From an uncultured bacterium (GTDB lineage Bacteria > Cyanobacteriota > Vampirovibrionia > Gastranaerophilales > JAILCC01): DNA of 64,000 nt. The notes beneath the pieces are model-generated. The model was not told the origin of the DNA. It made no database searches and saw only the letters and a list, made by a program, of their open reading frames with translations. Below, in pieces: positions 18,115 through 63,641 of the stretch; the stretch's first letter is position 1, and each line of letters starts with the position of its first letter. Location: assembly GCA_949283935.1 (NCBI GenBank), contig CASDUJ010000032.1, forward strand, positions 1 to 64,000, given 5' to 3'. A program made the translations under genes and the position numbers.

Positions 18115-18933
18115 TCAATATTTCATTTTCCATCCATCTTGTATTAATTGAGCAGCACAACCTCTTGTATCTTGAGCATCATCTTCGCTTGGCATATTAC
18201 ATTTATTGTAAAAAGCATTGTCAAACTCACCTCCAAAAGGATACACTCCAAGAACACTTCTATCGGTAATCCACATTCCAAAAACATCTCTTCCCCAAAC
18301 ATTAGGGCCTTGAGGGCCATTTACATCAATAACAATAAACCCACACAAACTTAACATTTGATTAGAAGGATTATCTTTATCATTCACATAAGCATTTAAA
18401 TAAGCATCAATCATTTGGGCATTATCGGCAGTTCTTTCATTAAGACATTTAAGCCCAAAACTCAATACCGCATAAGAAACACCTCTAACTGTCCTAAAGG
18501 TATAAAATCCTGTTTCAAAGTCAGAGCCTTCAGCAAAATTGACTTTATCGCTCATAGTTTCTTTTAAAGTTTGTTCTTTATTGCCAGACAAACCAACTTT
18601 TACTTTATGCGAAAAACAATTACTACCTGTTTTAGTGCCACAATTTTCAGCTACAGCCATTACAGAAGTCATAGCATCGCCAAAATTTTTAGTAGATATG
18701 GCTTGTCCATCATCAAAAAGATGAGTACAAGTCAAGCTTTTGTTACAATCTTCTTCCAAAGCCATTCTTGTTAAGGCATTAAAAGTTTCAGCAAAAGAAC
18801 GCTTAAAAGTTACAGTCCACTTTTCTTTACTAAATTCTTGAAACAAAAACGGAATAGTTAAAGCCGCAACAACTCCAATTAACATCAAAGTTGCTAAAAG
18901 TTCTGCTAAAGTAAAAGCCAATTTATTTTTCAT
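18115..18933 (-). CDS. Prepilin-like protein (type IV pilin / type II secretion pseudopilin class)
   Basis: A 272-residue protein with a prepilin N-terminus: MKNKLA then [21 protein letters not shown]. Cleavage is expected after A6, with Glu at +5. The ectodomain has several Cys pairs ([23 protein letters not shown]) and the motif [13 protein letters not shown] followed by [10 protein letters not shown]; equivalents occur in the prepilin-like proteins at 39831 and 48014. The end is [14 protein letters not shown]. It would be processed by a prepilin peptidase and assembled by a type IV pilus or type II secretion-like machine. It ends in TGA, which shows TGA is a stop codon in this genome. ispF follows directly. 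Confidence 0.85.
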
Positions 18934-48013: not shown

Positions 48014-49036
48014 ATGGTTGTACAAAAAATTTTCATAAACATTACTAATTTCAGCCTCAAAAAGATTAATAGTTTAACTCTAGCAGAAATTCTAATTACC
48101 ATTGTTACAATTGGAATAGTTGCGATACTTGTATTACCTTCTTTATTTTCTAATTTAGATGTCAAATTAAAAGATACCAACAGAGAAATTTTCAAGCAAA
48201 AACTTGATGTTTCTTTAAAAAAAATGAAGGTTATGGGTGATTTAGAAAAAAAATATGAAACAACTAAAAGTTTTGTCAACGGGTTAAAAAAACATATAGT
48301 TATAGTAAATGCCAACAACAATAATACTATTACTTCTTATTTCGGAGATATTATTTATGACAATCAAGGAACAGAAAAATATTATACGTATTCACTGAAA
48401 ACAAGTAAAGATTTAGGGAAAGATTTTGAATCAGAAATTATGGTCGTAATATTTGCTGATTGAGTTAGTTCATTGATTACGTATGACCCTGATTGTATCG
48501 TAGAACAAGATAGTGACAGCCTATATAAATGTCTAGCAATTATTTATGATATAAATGGTAAAAAAGGTCCAAATCAATACCTAAAAGACATTGGCAGTAT
48601 TAATGTTAAACTTGATGATTCATTAGATTTTGAAATAAACGAAATTTTTTCACCTACTCCGCTAAATTGCACTGAATGCGAAAATGCGAAATTACAGGGA
48701 GCACCAATAACTTCTTGCTGTGATGTTGATACAGATTATTTTGCAGGAGCATCTTATGAATGTTATAAAGAAGGAAAAAGGCTTCCTAACCACAATGAAC
48801 TTACTATAATTGCACAAAAGTTATATAAAGATGAAATATCATACCCTGGTACTACATCAAATTTAAAAATAGCAGATGAAAATCTTTGGACCCAATTTAA
48901 TAACCAAAATAATTTTTACTGGGCATCAGAGCACAAAGCAAACAACGCAGAATTTAGAAGCTTGTTATTAAATGCTACATCCGTTGGTATATACAGTAGA
49001 GATAGGGGAGCAGTTAAGGCATTCTGCATTGAATAA
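48014..49036 (+). pseudogene. Prepilin-like gene interrupted by an in-frame TGA
   Basis: One reading frame of about 341 codons with a single TGA at 48461-48463. The first part (149 residues) has a prepilin N-terminus (KKINS then LTLAEILITIVTIGIVAILV) behind a good ribosome binding site. The frame continues through VSSLITYDPDC to CLAIIYDINGKKGPN, the 'DxNGxxxPN' block of the other prepilins, and a C-terminal part (CTECENAKLQ, EGKRLPNHNELTIIAQ, NNFYWASEH, RGAVKAFCIE) resembling DUF1566/C-type-lectin-like domains. TGG to TGA would explain the stop. TGA terminates other genes here, so this is a nonsense mutation, read-through or base error. Confidence 0.75.
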
Positions 49037-53239: not shown

Positions 53240-55216
53240 ATGCCCAAAATTTTAGTTTATTCTCAGAATGAATCTGATATAGAAAATGTTATAAATCCGC
53301 TAAAAGAAGTTGGATACATAGTTTCTCATACGCAAACTATAGAAAATCTTTTTCAAATAGCAACAGATTTTAACGCAGATATAATGATATTATCTATAAA
53401 AGATAAAACCGATGAAGTTTCAAGAATTTGTAGAAAAATAAGACTTTTAGACCAATCTAGCGACATACAAATCATATTATTAGTAGAAAAAGATGTATTG
53501 TTTAATGAAATTTCACAAGGAGCAGACGGTTATGTCCAAAGGCCAATAAATCCTGCAATTCTTGTTTCAACAGTAAATGCACATCTCAGATTAAAAAATC
53601 ACTTGGATATATTTTCAGCAAACAACAGCGAATTAGCTAAAAGATTTTACCAATTAAAAGTTTTATACGATACAAACTCCAATCTTGCAGGAACCTTAAA
53701 TCGTCGCAAACTTATAAATATAATGAATGAAGGACTGGAACAAAGTATAAGTTACTCTCTTTGTTCAACCTTAATTATAAATACTCCTGAAGATATTTTA
53801 CTTTTAATAAATTCTATTTACCCTATCAGTAAAAGATTAGAACAAGCATTGAAACTAAGAGCAGTAATAACATACAAATCTATGTTTTCAGAAGAAAATT
53901 TGCCATTTGAATTCAACGTAAACAACATAAAAACAGAAGTGAATTACAAAAAGGATAATGAAAAATATGATCTTGAAATTATGAGATTTGCAAGCATATT
54001 TTCTCCAATATCAACTCAAGATAAATTTTTCGGTACTGTTGAAATTATGAGGGACACAGAACTTTCAAGGGAAGACACTACTTGTTTTCAAACTGTAGTA
54101 AGCCAAGTAGCTTTGCCTTTAGAAAGTGCTATTCTTTACGAAGAAATTCAAGACAAAAATGAAAAATTAGAAAAACTTGAAAAATTAAAATCTGAATTTG
54201 TATCTATTGTTTCTCACGAACTGCGCACACCATTGACTGCAATAAAAAACTCACTTGACATAATGCTTAGCGGAAAAACAGGGGACATAAATGAAAAAAT
54301 GGCAAATTTTTTAAATATGGGGAAAAGAAATGTAACAAGATTATCTGGAATTATAAATGATTTATTGGATTTATCCAAAATTGAAGCAGGGAAAATGGAA
54401 TATAGATTTGAAAAAACAAATTTAAAAGATCCTATTAATATGGTTTTATCGACTTTTAAACCAACTGCACAAGAAAGAGGGATTGAATTAAATGCAATTT
54501 TCAACACAGAAAAAGCAGAAGTATACGGAGATACACAAAAAATAGAGCAAATATTATCAAATTTGGTTTCCAATGCTTTGAAGTTTACAAATTCTCAAGG
54601 TAACGTAAAAATTATTTTAAGCGAAGCCAAAAATAAAAATTATTGGCTAATAGAAGTAAAAGATACAGGAATTGGAATAAACAAGGAAAATTTATCAAAA
54701 GTTTTTGACAAATTCCAGCAAATAGAAAGTTCTTTAAGCAGAAAAGTTGGAGGAACAGGTTTAGGATTACCCATTGCAAAAGAATTTATCACAACACACA
54801 AAGGCAATGTTTGGGTTGAAAGTGAAGAAGGCAAGGGAACAACATTTGCATTTACTATGCCAAAGTTTAATGAATACACAAATTTTTTAATTGAATTAGA
54901 ACTTTTTTACGAAAAAGCCAAAAATTTAAACTCTAATTTTGGAATTATAAATATCAAATCTGAAAATTTACAAGAGATAACAGAATTTTTGAACAAAGAG
55001 AAAAAATACAAGAAAATATTTAACGAAAAAGAAAATTTGTACGTAATTACGAATAATTTAAACAAAAATGCTTTTGAAATTTATTTAGAAAAGTTAAAAG
55101 ATTTTATTACCTCAAAAAATGATGTTAAAATGTTATTGAAAAGCACATATTGTGATTTTGATGAAGACAAAGCTATAGATGAGTTACTAAATGAAATAAA
55201 CCAAGAAAAGTTGTAA
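53240..55216 (+). CDS. Histidine kinase with N-terminal pseudo-receiver
   Basis: 658 residues, soluble. Residues 1-118 have a receiver fold (MPKILVYSQNESDIENVINP, ADIMILSIKDK, GADGYVQRPINPAIL), but the phosphoacceptor Asp is Ser (S52), the N-terminal acidic pair is missing and the conserved Lys is replaced by Arg. A GAF-like region covers about 150-300. HisKA (FVSIVSHELRTPLTAIKNSL) and HATPase_c (ILSNLVSNALKF, KVGGTGLGLPIAKEF) are intact. The C-terminal 110 residues are an extra domain of unknown type. GATGGAAG precedes the ATG. The CheY-like gene starts directly after its stop, so the kinase probably phosphorylates that receiver. Confidence 0.88.
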   Translation: MPKILVYSQNESDIENVINPLKEVGYIVSHTQTIENLFQIATDFNADIMILSIKDKTDEVSRICRKIRLLDQSSDIQIILLVEKDVLFNEISQGADGYVQRPINPAILVSTVNAHLRLKNHLDIFSANNSELAKRFYQLKVLYDTNSNLAGTLNRRKLINIMNEGLEQSISYSLCSTLIINTPEDILLLINSIYPISKRLEQALKLRAVITYKSMFSEENLPFEFNVNNIKTEVNYKKDNEKYDLEIMRFASIFSPISTQDKFFGTVEIMRDTELSREDTTCFQTVVSQVALPLESAILYEEIQDKNEKLEKLEKLKSEFVSIVSHELRTPLTAIKNSLDIMLSGKTGDINEKMANFLNMGKRNVTRLSGIINDLLDLSKIEAGKMEYRFEKTNLKDPINMVLSTFKPTAQERGIELNAIFNTEKAEVYGDTQKIEQILSNLVSNALKFTNSQGNVKIILSEAKNKNYWLIEVKDTGIGINKENLSKVFDKFQQIESSLSRKVGGTGLGLPIAKEFITTHKGNVWVESEEGKGTTFAFTMPKFNEYTNFLIELELFYEKAKNLNSNFGIINIKSENLQEITEFLNKEKKYKKIFNEKENLYVITNNLNKNAFEIYLEKLKDFITSKNDVKMLLKSTYCDFDEDKAIDELLNEINQEKL

Positions 55217-55594
55217 ATGAAAATGAAGGTAAAAACAGTTTTAATAGCAGATGATGAAATAGACATAGTAGAAACTTTAAAATTTATGCTAGAATCTGAA
55301 GGATTTGAAGTTTTAACAGCATATGACGGGGAAGAAGCCTTAAAAAAAGCTAGAACAAATTTTCCTGACATAATTTTGCTTGATGTAATGATGCCCAAAA
55401 TTAATGGTTATAAAGTTTCACGTTTACTAAAATTTGATAAAAAATTTCAAGATATTCCAATACTTATGATAACAGCTCGTTCACAAGAAGAAGACAAGCT
55501 AATAGGAGAGGAAACAGGTGCAGACGAATATATAACAAAACCTTTTGAAATTTCAAATGTTATAGATTTAATTAACAAATATTTACAGGTATAG
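55217..55594 (+). CDS. Single-domain CheY-like response regulator
   Basis: 125 residues, receiver only: acidic pair in LIADDEID, phosphoacceptor D56 (IILLDVMMPKINGYK), MITARSQEED with Thr, and EYITKPFEISN with Lys. All activity residues are present and there is no output domain. It begins at the base after the stop of the kinase gene and ends four bases before the GspE-like gene. As a stand-alone phospho-carrier it may act by binding its downstream neighbour; this is an inference from gene order. Confidence 0.92.
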   Translation: MKMKVKTVLIADDEIDIVETLKFMLESEGFEVLTAYDGEEALKKARTNFPDIILLDVMMPKINGYKVSRLLKFDKKFQDIPILMITARSQEEDKLIGEETGADEYITKPFEISNVIDLINKYLQV

Positions 55595-55598
55595 TTGT

Positions 55599-56840
55599 AT
55601 GCTTCTTTTGACTAATAAAACTATAGAAAAACTAAAACACGACCTTGTAAGAGAAGGACTAGTAGAACTAGATGGGTTAATGTTAGCACAAGAAAATGCC
55701 AAGATAAACAGCACCAATTTAGCCCAAGAACTAGTTAAAGAAAATCTTATAACAGAAACTGTTTTACTAAAATTTATTGAAGACAAATTACACATTCCTT
55801 TTGTAGATTTAAGAGATTATACCCCAGACACAAATTGTTTAGCTTACATAAGTTCTGAAAATGCTCAAAAATACAATATTTTCCCATTATTTAAAATTGA
55901 AGATGTCTTAACGATAGCTATGTCGGATCCACTTGATTTGTTTACAATAAATACCTTATTTGAATTTAGTGATATATCAATAGAACCTGTTGTATGTACG
56001 GAAACTTCTATTAAAGAAGCTATTAAAGAATATTATTTAAAACAAAATACTTCATACGGAAATGAAACATGGCAAGATATGCTTATCTCAGATAACATCA
56101 ATGATGAAATTCTAAAAGAGGCCATTTGGGATATATTAAAAGATGCAATTAAAACAAATACCGAACACATTTTTATGGAACGTTCTCATACAGGATTGAA
56201 CATTTTTTTCAATAAAGAAATAAAAGGATTTATTCCTAATTTACTAGTCCCAAGATTTATGTTTGAATTTAAAAATTTATCAAATTTAGACAATGAAATA
56301 GAAGAAATTGCTCAAAGTTCTAAATTCACAATAGATTTAAACAATCAAAAATATTCCATTTTAGTTTCTTTATTTCCCACAAAATTTGGATCAAGAATAT
56401 CAATTATTATAAATAAACCTATAAAAAATATAACAGAATATAATTTTGATGAAAAAAAATTAAATGAACTATTTTCGCATCCCGCACTAATTGGAATAAA
56501 TGACTTAAATAAAAATGAAGCTAACAGTTTATTTTACGCATTAGCTGAATATTTGAGTGAAGAATACAATATACTTATGGTAGAAAGCAACATTAAATAT
56601 GAACTTAGTGGTATAGCTCAAATAGAATTCCACAAAAACACAGCCTTGTATTTTGATGAAATAATAAACCAAATAGATTTACAAAGATTTGACATAATAT
56701 TTTTCGAAAAAATTTACACAAAAGAACAAGCGAATAAATTAAAAATGTTTACCAAAGAAAAAATAATAGTAACAAATTCTACAGAAGAAAATTTCAGTAA
56801 ATTTGATTTTCAAATTAATACACAAGGAAAAATATTTTAA
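55599..56840 (+). CDS. Degenerate GspE/PilB-like protein (pseudo-ATPase)
   Basis: 413 residues. The N-terminus (about 1-140) is an MshEN/GspE-N-type domain: ELVKENLITETVLLKFIEDK, IPFVDLRDY, YNIFPLFKIEDVLTIAMSDP, EPVVCTETSIKEAIKEYY. The rest follows the PilB/GspE ATPase order but without its motifs. Where Walker A (GPTGSGKTT) is expected there is GINDLNKNEANSLFYAL; the next blocks NILMVESNIKYELSGIAQIE and DIIFFEKI echo the 'NIxTVEDPxEYxLxGIxQ' and 'DPDIIxxGEI' regions with the acidic residues lost. No nucleotide hydrolysis is expected. It is third in the kinase-CheY operon, so it may be a regulator that binds the pilus or secretion motor. Confidence 0.75.
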   Translation: MLLLTNKTIEKLKHDLVREGLVELDGLMLAQENAKINSTNLAQELVKENLITETVLLKFIEDKLHIPFVDLRDYTPDTNCLAYISSENAQKYNIFPLFKIEDVLTIAMSDPLDLFTINTLFEFSDISIEPVVCTETSIKEAIKEYYLKQNTSYGNETWQDMLISDNINDEILKEAIWDILKDAIKTNTEHIFMERSHTGLNIFFNKEIKGFIPNLLVPRFMFEFKNLSNLDNEIEEIAQSSKFTIDLNNQKYSILVSLFPTKFGSRISIIINKPIKNITEYNFDEKKLNELFSHPALIGINDLNKNEANSLFYALAEYLSEEYNILMVESNIKYELSGIAQIEFHKNTALYFDEIINQIDLQRFDIIFFEKIYTKEQANKLKMFTKEKIIVTNSTEENFSKFDFQINTQGKIF

Positions 56841-56860: not shown

Positions 56861-56888
56861 AAAAAAAGGGTTGACAAAAAGTCAACCC
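56861..56888 (-). terminator. Terminator of cobO
   Basis: Read on minus: GGGTTGAC-TTTTT-GTCAACCC followed by seven T. Perfect 8-bp stem. The plus-strand orientation lacks a T-run. Confidence 0.9.
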
Positions 56889-56922
56889 TCTCTCCCCAAT
56901 TTCCCAATAATTTTCCCAAATC

Positions 56923-59540: not shown

Positions 59541-62500
59541 TTATCCATTCAAAGTTTTGAAAAATACGTCAACTATAGTTCTCACAACAGACTTCACAGC
59601 TCCTGTAGCAGCATCCCATATATCCATCATAAAACCGCCAACAATACCTATCACATTACCGTGCTCATCTGTTTTTATTGTCAGTCCATCTTCATTGAAT
59701 TCAGTGCTATATTCAGTCGAAATTGAAGTAATTCCGACATCTTTTAAAGTTTTCAATTCAGGAGTATAACAATTATCATTTGACGTATCATAACTGCAAG
59801 AACAATAACTTTGTCCAGTTAATATATTTCCGAAACCTTTTATAAGAGATACATCACAATTTAAAACATAGTAATCTACACGACCATTTTTGTTCAAATC
59901 AGACCACAGAAGTAAATTATCAAAAATGGCATCTTGAGCATCTATGGTTCCGTCATTGTTATCGTCATATTTAGTAAGTTCATCAAAACCTGTTTTTTCA
60001 CCATTTTGATCGCCAAACAATTGTTTACCACTTTGAATTTGAACATTAAGAACTTTACCTTCATATACCATTGGAGTAGTTTTATCATTCAAATATTCAT
60101 TGTGGAAATTTTGCTTTTTATCTCCATCTGAATTATCTTCAGCGTGTTTGAAATTTCTACCTTTGTTTTCAACATACTTTAATTCCGGATTATCATGAGA
60201 TGCTATACACAAAAATGCATCATCAAATCCTTTATTTTCCATATTAGTCGTCCAAGCTGTTTGCTCTACGCCATTTCCGGTAATATCAAATTGAACTCCA
60301 TCTTTTACGGATGTAAAGACTAAACCATCACCTTGGATATCAAAGACTAAAGGAGATTGAACTTTAAATGTATAATTAACATCATATTCGCATCTGTTCC
60401 TTATGGTTTTTAATGTACCTCCGACAACACTGCTGCCATGTCCGTTACAAAAACCGTTAGGTATATAGCCTTTGCGACCTACAGTAGAATATTCATAGTT
60501 ACCATTTTCGGGATGAAGTTTTCCTACTCCATAATTTCCACCACGGTCTTTCACACTATTAACAATACTATTATGGGTATCTATGTAATCTATAAGAAAA
60601 CCTTTATCAGAAATAATATACAAGTTTTGTCTGCCTTCGCCGTTACTATAAGCTTTTTCTTTAGCTGTAATTTGTGAACTTGGAATACAAGTAAAATTAT
60701 TCAACAATGCAGCTAAAGTTGTTGCATGGTTATGACCTTGAGTCATCATGTAAACACTTCCATAATCAGCACAAGCAGTACAAGAAGTATTACCTGTTCC
60801 ATTAGCATAAGTTTGCTTGTCGCAATCAAGACATTTAGCCATACCTTGATTTGGGGCATATGTATCTTGCGCACAAGGTTTACATACATCAGGAGATGTG
60901 CCACCTGCTACACCATTTGTAGATGTACCTGCAGGGCATGGAACACATATTTTTACGTTTGGATTATCAGGAGAAACTTGAGAATAATATCCGGCTTCAC
61001 ATTTAGAACATGTTCCGTCTGAATTTGTTTTTTCTCCATCTTTACAAGCAACGCATAATCCTACAGAAGCAGCACAAGTACCAGGGAATGCAGTACCAAA
61101 AGGACAAGCTTCGCAATAAGGATATTTAGACTTATCATAACTTGAACTTATAGTACTTGGAGCTTTACTTGCATTTTGAACTCCATAAGTATTAGAAGGA
61201 CAGCATGTACAAATTTCATCTACTGAAGTATAAGTCTCTTCTACTTCAGAATTAAAATATTTACCAACCGGACAGAACTTACAAACTCCTGCTCCATCCC
61301 CAACTTTATCAACAGCACCTTCTACCACAGAATAAGTGCCTGTAGGGCAAGGAATACAAAAATCTTTGCTAGCCGGAGCAACACTATATTCGGCAACTGT
61401 ATAAGTTCTTATAGGACATTTAACACAAGTATTAACACTTGTCTGACCTTCTGCTGTAGAATAGGTACCAGGCTGACACCAAGTGCAAGCATTAGCATCT
61501 TTGTTTCCTTTTTTGTCTGACCAAGTACCTGCAGGACATTTTACACATTCTGTAAGCCCTAAAGTGTTATTACCATGCATACCTGCAGGACAAGCATCAC
61601 AAGCAGTTTTTCTTGCAACGGTATTTGAATAAGTACCTATTTCACAAGGTATACATGCAGTCTGCCCAGATTGAGGTTGATAAGTTCCAGGCTCACATGC
61701 ATAACGATGAGTGATTGAATCTTCGTCGCTTGGATTGTCTTTAGGACATTTGTAGCCTGGAGGACATATCGCACATTGAGTAGCCTTGACACTTTGTGGA
61801 TTTCCTTTGTCATTTGCAGAATAATATCCAGCTTTACACAAAACAGGAGCTTGGCATTTTCCTGCACAGGCATAGCCATCTTCACAATTTCTAACATTAG
61901 TAGCTGCCTGACTAACAAATTCGTTACTATTATTATTTGAAGCATATTGACCCGGTAAAACATCCAAACAAACTGTTTTACCAGCTTCTGGTTGGTACGT
62001 GCCACAAATGCAAGCTTTAGGTTGAATCAAGCCCTTTTCCGGACAATAGTTTCCTACAGGACAAGCTATACAACTTGTAGATCCAGATTTATCTTGATAA
62101 CTTCCTGCAGGACATAATTCACATTTTTTTAGCTTCGTATCATAATAACTTCCAGCTGGACAACCTTGACAAAATAATGCACCCTCATCTGACCAAGTGC
62201 CAACAGCACAAACAATAGGACTTACGGTTCCTGCAGTAGGACAATAATAATTTCTAGGGCAGGGAAGACAAGCTGATACATCTGTCGCTCCTTCTTGAGC
62301 AGAATAAGTTCCAGCCGGACATTTTATAGGTTCAACCAAACCTTCTTCCGGACAATAATGCCCTTTAGGACAAATTGTTTTATCAGTTGCACCAACTTCT
62401 GGACAATAATACCCTTTTGGACATATAACTTTATTTATTAATCCACCATCTTTAACTTTAACTAAACTAGTATCTCCATTTTTGTCAGTTTCATATACAT

Positions 62501-63641
62501 ATTTCGCATTATTATATTTATTTTTGTCTTTATCATCTTTAACATTATTTGGACAATAATATCCTTTTGGACATATAACTGAATCTGTCATAGCTTCTTC
62601 TAAGCAATAATGTCCAACAACACAAAGATTACAAACTCCATCTTTTTCGTATGAACCAGGTAAACAAGGTGTTTCACAAGTTGCAGATTCATCAGATTTA
62701 ATATAACCTTTTTGCGGAGTAAAGGTGTCAGGACATACGCAAATTTTATTTTGTCCTTCGTATTTTTCAAAGACCTTAGGAGCAGCACAACATTGATCTT
62801 CTGTATAAGTTTCAGAACCATACAAGCCTACAGCCCTTTGTTTAACAACAATTGCGCCAGTTTGATTAGTTCCAGCACAAGCATATCCGCTTTCTGGCTT
62901 AGTATATATAAAACCACAATCATTTGTAGGACATAATTCTGTAACATCATTATCTGTAGTACAATTACCTTTAACTTTGCAATAGTCTGAATTACAAGGT
63001 TCATTGTCACAGATATAAGAACAAACCTTAGAAGTATCAGAAACACAAGGACCTGTAACTATAGGTGTTTTTTCCCAACCTTCATACATAGAATCTACAC
63101 TCTTTACTCCATTCGCAAATAAAGCATATTCTTCTGTTAATTCTTTGTCTTGTCCACTAACTTTTGTAACAGTAGAAGCAATAATCACAGCACAAGGAGA
63201 TTCATCCGTACAAAAAACATCTTTTACATATCCGTCATTTGATGTTTCATCTAGAGAATTTTTGAATTTAGCTTTTAACGTTACACCATTATCCAATTTA
63301 ATTAATTGAGCATCTTTTATAGTATCATTACTTGAAATCTTTGAAGTTTCCACAGCTATGCCAGAATCTTTGGAATTAAAATAACTTAAAAGAGAATCAT
63401 TTAATGAATTCTGGTCACTAATGACTGCATTTACACCTAAACCAGTTTCATTAGATTTAGAAATAGCTTTTCCCCAAGTTTTCAAAGCAGAATCTACCTG
63501 AGAGAGCTTTGTTGTAGCAATTTTATAATGATTATCCGAAAAATTATTCAGAGATAACATGGTAACAACCAAAATACCAATAATCCCTAATGCTGTCAGC
63601 ACCTCTGCTATTGTAAATCCATTGTAATTTTGATACTTCAT
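59541..63641 (-). CDS. Giant prepilin-like protein with ephrin/GCC2-GCC3-like Cys-rich repeats and RTX-type C-terminus
   Basis: 1366 residues. The N-terminus MKYQNYNG then FTIAEVLTALGIIGILVVTM is a prepilin signal (G8 at -1, Glu at +5). After a pilin-like region of about 200 residues, about 750 residues consist of some 20 Cys-rich units of the type CPAGTYSAQEGATDVSACLP, CPKGYYCPEV, CPAGSYQDKSGSTSCIAC, resembling eukaryotic ephrin-receptor/GCC2-GCC3 repeats. From about residue 1095 the C-terminus is RTX/hemolysin-like: VFDIQGDGLVF, FDITGNGVEQTAW, LFGDQNGEKTGFDELTKYDD, NNDGTIDAQDAIFDNLLLWS and LKTLKDVGITSIST, with an EF-hand-like calcium loop. AAGGAG precedes the ATG. Probably a surface adhesin or pilus-tip protein. 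Confidence 0.85.
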   Translation of the reverse strand: MKYQNYNGFTIAEVLTALGIIGILVVTMLSLNNFSDNHYKIATTKLSQVDSALKTWGKAISKSNETGLGVNAVISDQNSLNDSLLSYFNSKDSGIAVETSKISSNDTIKDAQLIKLDNGVTLKAKFKNSLDETSNDGYVKDVFCTDESPCAVIIASTVTKVSGQDKELTEEYALFANGVKSVDSMYEGWEKTPIVTGPCVSDTSKVCSYICDNEPCNSDYCKVKGNCTTDNDVTELCPTNDCGFIYTKPESGYACAGTNQTGAIVVKQRAVGLYGSETYTEDQCCAAPKVFEKYEGQNKICVCPDTFTPQKGYIKSDESATCETPCLPGSYEKDGVCNLCVVGHYCLEEAMTDSVICPKGYYCPNNVKDDKDKNKYNNAKYVYETDKNGDTSLVKVKDGGLINKVICPKGYYCPEVGATDKTICPKGHYCPEEGLVEPIKCPAGTYSAQEGATDVSACLPCPRNYYCPTAGTVSPIVCAVGTWSDEGALFCQGCPAGSYYDTKLKKCELCPAGSYQDKSGSTSCIACPVGNYCPEKGLIQPKACICGTYQPEAGKTVCLDVLPGQYASNNNSNEFVSQAATNVRNCEDGYACAGKCQAPVLCKAGYYSANDKGNPQSVKATQCAICPPGYKCPKDNPSDEDSITHRYACEPGTYQPQSGQTACIPCEIGTYSNTVARKTACDACPAGMHGNNTLGLTECVKCPAGTWSDKKGNKDANACTWCQPGTYSTAEGQTSVNTCVKCPIRTYTVAEYSVAPASKDFCIPCPTGTYSVVEGAVDKVGDGAGVCKFCPVGKYFNSEVEETYTSVDEICTCCPSNTYGVQNASKAPSTISSSYDKSKYPYCEACPFGTAFPGTCAASVGLCVACKDGEKTNSDGTCSKCEAGYYSQVSPDNPNVKICVPCPAGTSTNGVAGGTSPDVCKPCAQDTYAPNQGMAKCLDCDKQTYANGTGNTSCTACADYGSVYMMTQGHNHATTLAALLNNFTCIPSSQITAKEKAYSNGEGRQNLYIISDKGFLIDYIDTHNSIVNSVKDRGGNYGVGKLHPENGNYEYSTVGRKGYIPNGFCNGHGSSVVGGTLKTIRNRCEYDVNYTFKVQSPLVFDIQGDGLVFTSVKDGVQFDITGNGVEQTAWTTNMENKGFDDAFLCIASHDNPELKYVENKGRNFKHAEDNSDGDKKQNFHNEYLNDKTTPMVYEGKVLNVQIQSGKQLFGDQNGEKTGFDELTKYDDNNDGTIDAQDAIFDNLLLWSDLNKNGRVDYYVLNCDVSLIKGFGNILTGQSYCSCSYDTSNDNCYTPELKTLKDVGITSISTEYSTEFNEDGLTIKTDEHGNVIGIVGGFMMDIWDAATGAVKSVVRTIVDVFFKTLNG

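Follow-up and report, generated by a model that had tools for sequence, protein, structure and literature searches.

A PilB-derived pseudo-ATPase encoded with a histidine kinase and a CheY-like receiver in a non-photosynthetic cyanobacterial order

The closest precedent for the locus described here comes from the photosynthetic cyanobacteria, the sister group, where a receiver-based regulator controls the pilus motor by protein contact: the PATAN response regulator PixG of Synechocystis interacts, in its phosphorylated form, with PilB1 and PilC (PMC12288463). PixG carries its output, a PATAN domain, within the regulator itself, whereas the output here would be a dead version of the motor made as a protein of its own. 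Additional motor paralogs that cooperate with the main motor, such as TfpB and PilU, are also known (PMC11656802), but these are described as ATPases, while the protein analyzed here lacks the catalytic residues and is encoded with a kinase and a CheY of its own. A further likeness is to the N-domain of GspE/XpsE of Xanthomonas campestris, an MshEN-type domain that no longer binds c-di-GMP (PMC5013675); the XpsE domain is part of a type II secretion ATPase, whereas the domain studied here belongs to a protein without motor residues.

The protein in question, hereafter called pseudo-PilB, is encoded in a window of 64,000 nucleotides from a non-photosynthetic relative of these cyanobacteria, a Melainabacterium; the window is the whole stretch of DNA that was analyzed (Table 1). 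It shares with PilB, the type IVa extension ATPase (TIGR02538; structures 5tsg/5tsh and 3jc8), the order of MshEN, N2, and RecA-like core, a full-length alignment, and the fold. Unlike PilB, it has no Walker A, arginine fingers, Mg-binding and catalytic Glu residues, HIS box, or tetracysteine/C-terminal part. GspE, the type II secretion ATPase, belongs to the same superfamily; pseudo-PilB scores lower against GspE than against PilB, and its catalytic losses are the same in that comparison. We found no description of a kinase-CheY-pseudo-PilB module in the open-access literature, which was the scope of the search, subscription papers lying outside it.

Table 1. Coordinates of the features discussed, numbered along the window
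Feature	Position	Strand	Description
ORF with pilin-like N terminus	18115-18933	-	
ORF with pilin-like N terminus	48014-48463	+	
Histidine kinase gene	53240..55216	+	658 aa, cytosolic type; weak receiver-like N terminus, HisKA (H326), HATPase_c; abuts CheY gene (gap, 0 bp)
Receiver-like N terminus of kinase	53240-53580		
CheY-like receiver gene	55217..55594	+	125 aa, single domain; ends 4 bp upstream of pseudo-PilB gene
Pseudo-PilB gene	55599..56840	+	413 aa plus stop; MshEN, ~residues 8-148; linker; N2, 168-275; shortened RecA-like core, 276-413
Walker A position	56496..56519	+	DLNKNEAN, residues 300-307; aligned to GPTGSGKT of PilB
ASP-box remnant	56583..56597	+	E329 kept (E353-equivalent); K333 replaces Mg-binding Glu (E357-equivalent)
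Walker B region	56691..56714	+	DIIFFEKI; E370 at PilB Gly394, K371 at catalytic Glu395
Hairpin	56867..56889	.	9 bp; between pseudo-PilB gene and convergent cobO; z = -4.3
ORF with pilin-like N terminus and Cys-rich repeats	59541-63641	-	1366 aa

PilB ancestry and active site of pseudo-PilB

An earlier note on this DNA had described a GspE/PilB-like protein with an MshEN-like N terminus, and the resemblance proved to extend well past the N-terminal domain. Pfam matches were obtained to MshEN (E = 2.4e-18) and T2SSE (E = 1.5e-8; best stretch, residues 168 to 289), and phmmer aligned residues 14 to 377 with Myxococcus xanthus PilB 3jc8 (E = 4.6e-26). A profile of the pseudo-PilB family aligned over nearly the full length with solved PilBs (E = 2.4e-71). 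The AlphaFold model (mean pLDDT, 84.4; pTM, 0.58) had its best Foldseek match in 4pht, a structure of GspE with GspL (E = 6.6e-17), and also matched PilB 5tsh_E (E = 9.9e-16; 240 columns; rmsd, 3.7 Å); in a viral structure library, the model returned only a weak match, to a phage-encoded DotB-like ATPase. All three parts of the PilB/GspE fold (MshEN, N2, and RecA-like core) are present, and the resemblance to PilB/GspE is far beyond chance. The score against the PilB equivalog model of NCBIfam, TIGR02538, was 98.9 bits, compared to 47.8 bits for the GspE model. The former value is below the cut-off of 675.65, and this test alone is not decisive, with the intact PilB of the same genome also scoring under the cut-off (563.9 bits).

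Catalytic residues were mapped to the numbering of G. metallireducens PilB (PMC5424180), counting back from the residues named there, and 16 canonical PilB rows in which every site is intact (one has Ser for the Walker A Thr) served as the reference. The reported loss of Walker A was confirmed, as the GINDLNKNEANS stretch lies opposite GPTGSGKT of 3jc8 in the phmmer alignment. The arginine fingers R271 and R286, which are Arg in 16/16 canonical rows, are replaced by Leu and Ile. The earlier claim that the Asp and His boxes are lost holds for the HIS box (H413 to Lys and H420 to Thr) and for the Mg-binding Glu of the ASP box and fails for the first Glu of that box, which is kept; the equivalents of E329 and K333 are invariant in a 35-sequence alignment. 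The protein also stops short of the tetracysteine zinc motif and the C-terminal part of PilB. Position by position, these losses agree with the proposal of a PilB-derived pseudo-ATPase without motor residues. Judged from the established mechanism, a PilB-type ATPase cycle is impossible with this residue set. With the defining features that were tested absent from it, pseudo-PilB does not count functionally as a PilB ATPase; it would work more like a motor adaptor under the control of a receiver.

The pseudo-PilB family across the order

A search of 97 genomes with pseudo-PilB returned a match at E ≤ 1e-5 in 96 of them; in two genomes (G003 and G021), ordinary PilBs were the sole matches. We aligned 63 orthologs, comprising all 3 available from the window's family and 60 from outside it. 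The orthologs form one clade separate from canonical PilB (SH-aLRT, 100), and the overall PilB shape is retained in most of the order.

Loss of Walker A, which the earlier note had emphasized, turned out to be restricted in its distribution. The P-loop is absent from 3/3 available members of the window's family; besides the window, the loci without it are L003, L004, and L011. Outside the window's family, it is kept as G-x4-GK[S/T] in 59/60 orthologs, the only exception being GSDSAHRV in L011 of genome G007. The earlier note had itself named homologs with a functional Walker A as evidence against its reading, and at the level of the motif these 59 are such homologs. Absent from 63/63 orthologs are both arginine fingers (outside the window's family, S/H/I/V and Lys stand in their places) and any His at either position of the HIS box; the E357-equivalent is Lys and the G394-equivalent is Glu, likewise in 63/63. 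A Glu at the catalytic position is retained in 13 of the 60 orthologs outside the window's family, and, with the P-loop kept in nearly all, weak hydrolysis of ATP might still occur there. On this alignment, what defines the family is not the loss of Walker A but that of the C-terminal part and of the residues that serve hydrolysis or act between subunits. The emphasis on Walker A is better replaced by this wider loss, and the core idea of the earlier note survives the change.

Read from sequence, the family is an old, hydrolysis-impaired offshoot of PilB in which the loss of Walker A was a later step. The first losses, of inter-subunit, Mg-binding, and HIS-box residues together with the C-terminal part, likely occurred in the common ancestor; the P-loop was probably lost afterwards in the window's family and, separately, in G007. 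A single Walker A loss covering both the window's family and L011 was considered and set aside, with the tree requiring two losses and an AU test allowing one clade (p = 0.33). Between the window's family and the other orthologs, the two halves of MshEN share 48% and 55% identity; the ATPase core shares 23%, compared to 49% among the other orthologs. That MshEN is held at this level while the core falls so far indicates that the N-domain is what selection holds, and by this measure, the core of the window's family is relaxed and its MshEN is still under constraint.

Other unusual motor proteins were encountered in relatives. A second, distinct degenerate PilB is encoded in G007 (L187:3147-6112) and G019 (L186:1302-3962); N2 and the C-terminal part are retained in it, but the core from the ASP box to the HIS box is missing, and the L186 copy is also without Walker A. 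Its gene lies directly 3′ of one whose product combines MshEN with an HD domain and which is adjoined by CheY-like receivers. The T2SSE matches in the window's genome include no protein of this type. In G247 (L188:5307-8073), a 514-aa T2SSE protein is encoded beside a protein that joins a receiver domain to a ParA/MinD-type ATPase, an arrangement that recalls Tad/Flp pilus genes.

Linkage to the kinase and the receiver

The genes immediately preceding pseudo-PilB (Table 1) include the CheY gene to which the earlier note had drawn attention. The receiver residues D12, D13, D56, T86, and K108 and the kinase residue H326 are invariant in 28/28 orthologs, and both proteins thus carry the residues of two-component phosphorylation. 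The receiver-like N terminus of the kinase (Pfam E = 0.0068) is poorly conserved among orthologs and seems to be without a phospho-acceptor Asp. The hairpin downstream of pseudo-PilB is followed by a T run on the minus strand and may be the terminator of cobO; a terminator scan did not pick it up. No promoter was assigned, as promoter-like sites were not commoner than in shuffled sequences.

The conserved kinase-CheY-pseudo-PilB order that the earlier note had suggested searching for was recovered in relatives: the kinase and CheY genes lie upstream of pseudo-PilB in 15/20 loci, which represent seven of the order's families, among flanking genes that vary, and in 3 of those 15 loci, an extra gene sits between kinase and CheY. 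Pseudo-PilB is located elsewhere in six genomes (G005, G016, G019, G023, G027, and G029), which keep adjacent kinase and CheY orthologs. Genome G013 has two units (L038 and L037). Frames of 592 to 597 aa in G049, G226, and G259 were considered as kinase-CheY fusions; the genes are separate at these loci.

In a sample of the class, 142 of the 144 genomes from the order have pseudo-PilB and 141 have the CheY ortholog; the single discrepancy (G062) is due to a contig end. At the threshold used, the CheY ortholog was absent from 96/96 genomes of the class outside the order. The pseudo-PilB query gave matches of 1e-32 or weaker in these 96 genomes, and the frames among the matches listed were 566 to 718 aa, the size of ordinary PilBs. 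G062, G021, G003, and G025 were examined as exceptions to joint presence and dismissed, the missing members lying beyond contig ends. Pseudo-PilB and CheY are both absent from G085 and G241, which could reflect loss of the whole unit, by one deletion in each, or an assembly gap; an empty site was sought as proof of loss in G085, where a neighboring gene is also missing and a deletion and an assembly gap look alike. The joint presence of adjacent genes is weak evidence of coupling. Overall, the coupling of kinase and CheY to pseudo-PilB is well supported, and the pilus is its putative target.

Candidate outputs of the module

Every genome checked encodes type IV pilus motors. In the window's genome, a secretin, an intact 677-aa PilB, and a PilC/GspF-type protein are encoded in one cluster, and there are two PilT proteins; the kinase-CheY-pseudo-PilB operon contains no pilus gene, and the live PilB is encoded on a different contig. 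A usual candidate for N1 docking is PilM. Docking of pseudo-PilB through PilM was rejected on the basis that PilM_2 (PF11104) had no Pfam match in six genomes of the order, with matches in control genomes; given its absence, the pili of these genomes may depart from the textbook composition in their inner-membrane part. For a termite-gut member of the group, pilA, pilB, pilC, pilT, and pilD have been reported (PMC5877343). Three further ORFs of the window have pilin-like N termini (Table 1). In the longest, this N terminus (GFTIAEVLTALGIIGIL) is followed by Cys-rich Ephrin_rec_like repeats, and the product is possibly a giant pilin-like surface protein.

As far as sequence comparison reaches, the order has a shared set consisting of an intact kinase, an intact receiver, and a PilB descendant that has lost its motor residues. 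We favor, with a probability of about one half, the reading that the locus is a signalling module in which this catalytically dead, PilB-derived protein is the output partner of the kinase and CheY and acts on the motor or the platform of the pilus. The kinase would phosphorylate CheY, and CheY~P would bind pseudo-PilB, most likely at its highly conserved MshEN domain. Keeping the N-domains and overall shape of PilB with no power stroke, pseudo-PilB would dock on live PilB or the platform protein PilC as a decoy, clutch, or scaffold, and the signal would tune pilus extension without a transcription step. The P-loop surviving in most orthologs may add ATP sensing; the window's family has dropped that feature as well. 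The observation in the earlier note is confirmed, and its interpretation is partly supported: descent from PilB without motor residues and an order-wide link to CheY both hold, and CheY-controlled binding to the live motor is putative.

It is also possible, although we consider it rather unlikely, that pili are not the output at all and that pseudo-PilB relays the CheY signal to exopolysaccharide export, secretion, or flagella, its PilB ancestry providing only a binding scaffold. The operon without pilus genes and its unrelated, changeable flanks fit this alternative, as do the flagellar genes in genomes of the group (PMC5877343) and the reported signalling role of M. xanthus PilB itself in regulating exopolysaccharide (PMC5544727). 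However, most of the order has kept the entire PilB shape and not MshEN alone, which points to a partner that recognizes PilB-like surfaces, and pilus motors accompany the module in all genomes checked.

We regard as improbable an ATP-dependent switch in which most orthologs bind Mg-ATP without hydrolysis and signal the level of ATP jointly with CheY~P, with ATP independence arising in the window's family. The P-loop in all but one of the orthologs outside that family agrees with such a switch, and so does the invariant Glu at the Walker B position, which is Gly in PilB-type ATPases and a Mg-binding acid in other ASCE ATPases (PMC5424180). Against this stand the Lys that replaces the Mg-binding ASP-box Glu throughout the family and the lack of a P-loop in the window's family and G007, where ATP binding cannot be essential.

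A role as a c-di-GMP effector, with MshEN binding the nucleotide and the pseudo-ATPase relaying it, has very little in its favor beyond the presence of MshEN as the best-conserved part and seven GGDEF matches in the genome. MshEN receptors bind c-di-GMP through two 24-residue RLG...Q motifs (PMC5013675), but in the window protein, the Gly of motif I is Lys, that of motif II is Ala, and the Gln is gone from both; moreover, the genome's canonical PilB matches NF053729, the NCBIfam model of the c-di-GMP motif (51.9 bits; cut-off, 38), and pseudo-PilB does not. The receptor reading was rejected on these two grounds. We attach equally slight weight to a true motor with unusual chemistry serving a second pilus: most orthologs have a P-loop and 13/60 have the catalytic-position Glu, but the arginine fingers, Mg-binding Glu, HIS box, and C-terminal part are missing from every ortholog aligned, and the window protein is without any P-loop. 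Least credible of all is that the gene once encoded a second pilus motor and is now decaying as a pseudogene, which would explain the missing catalytic residues and the fast-evolving C-terminal core of the window's family but not the open frames of 408 to 413 aa in three genera at ~44 to 50% identity, an MshEN as conserved as elsewhere, or an ortholog in nearly the whole order.

Returning to the favored reading of a signalling module that acts on the pilus, a broader proposal, which we make only tentatively, is that a non-photosynthetic cyanobacterial order controls its pili through a dead motor copy that has become a dedicated subunit or decoy under the control of phospho-CheY, having decayed stepwise, with hydrolysis and inter-subunit residues lost first and the P-loop later. 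The targets of single-domain CheY proteins are seldom evident from sequence, and here the neighboring gene names a testable one. If the reading is true, pseudo-PilB would be a motor paralog turned regulator, and the canonical motor, the form with only a P-loop, and the form without one would make up a natural series from which to learn what a PilB copy does without ATP. The order in which this would take place includes the host-associated Melainabacteria, whose surface behavior is almost unstudied.
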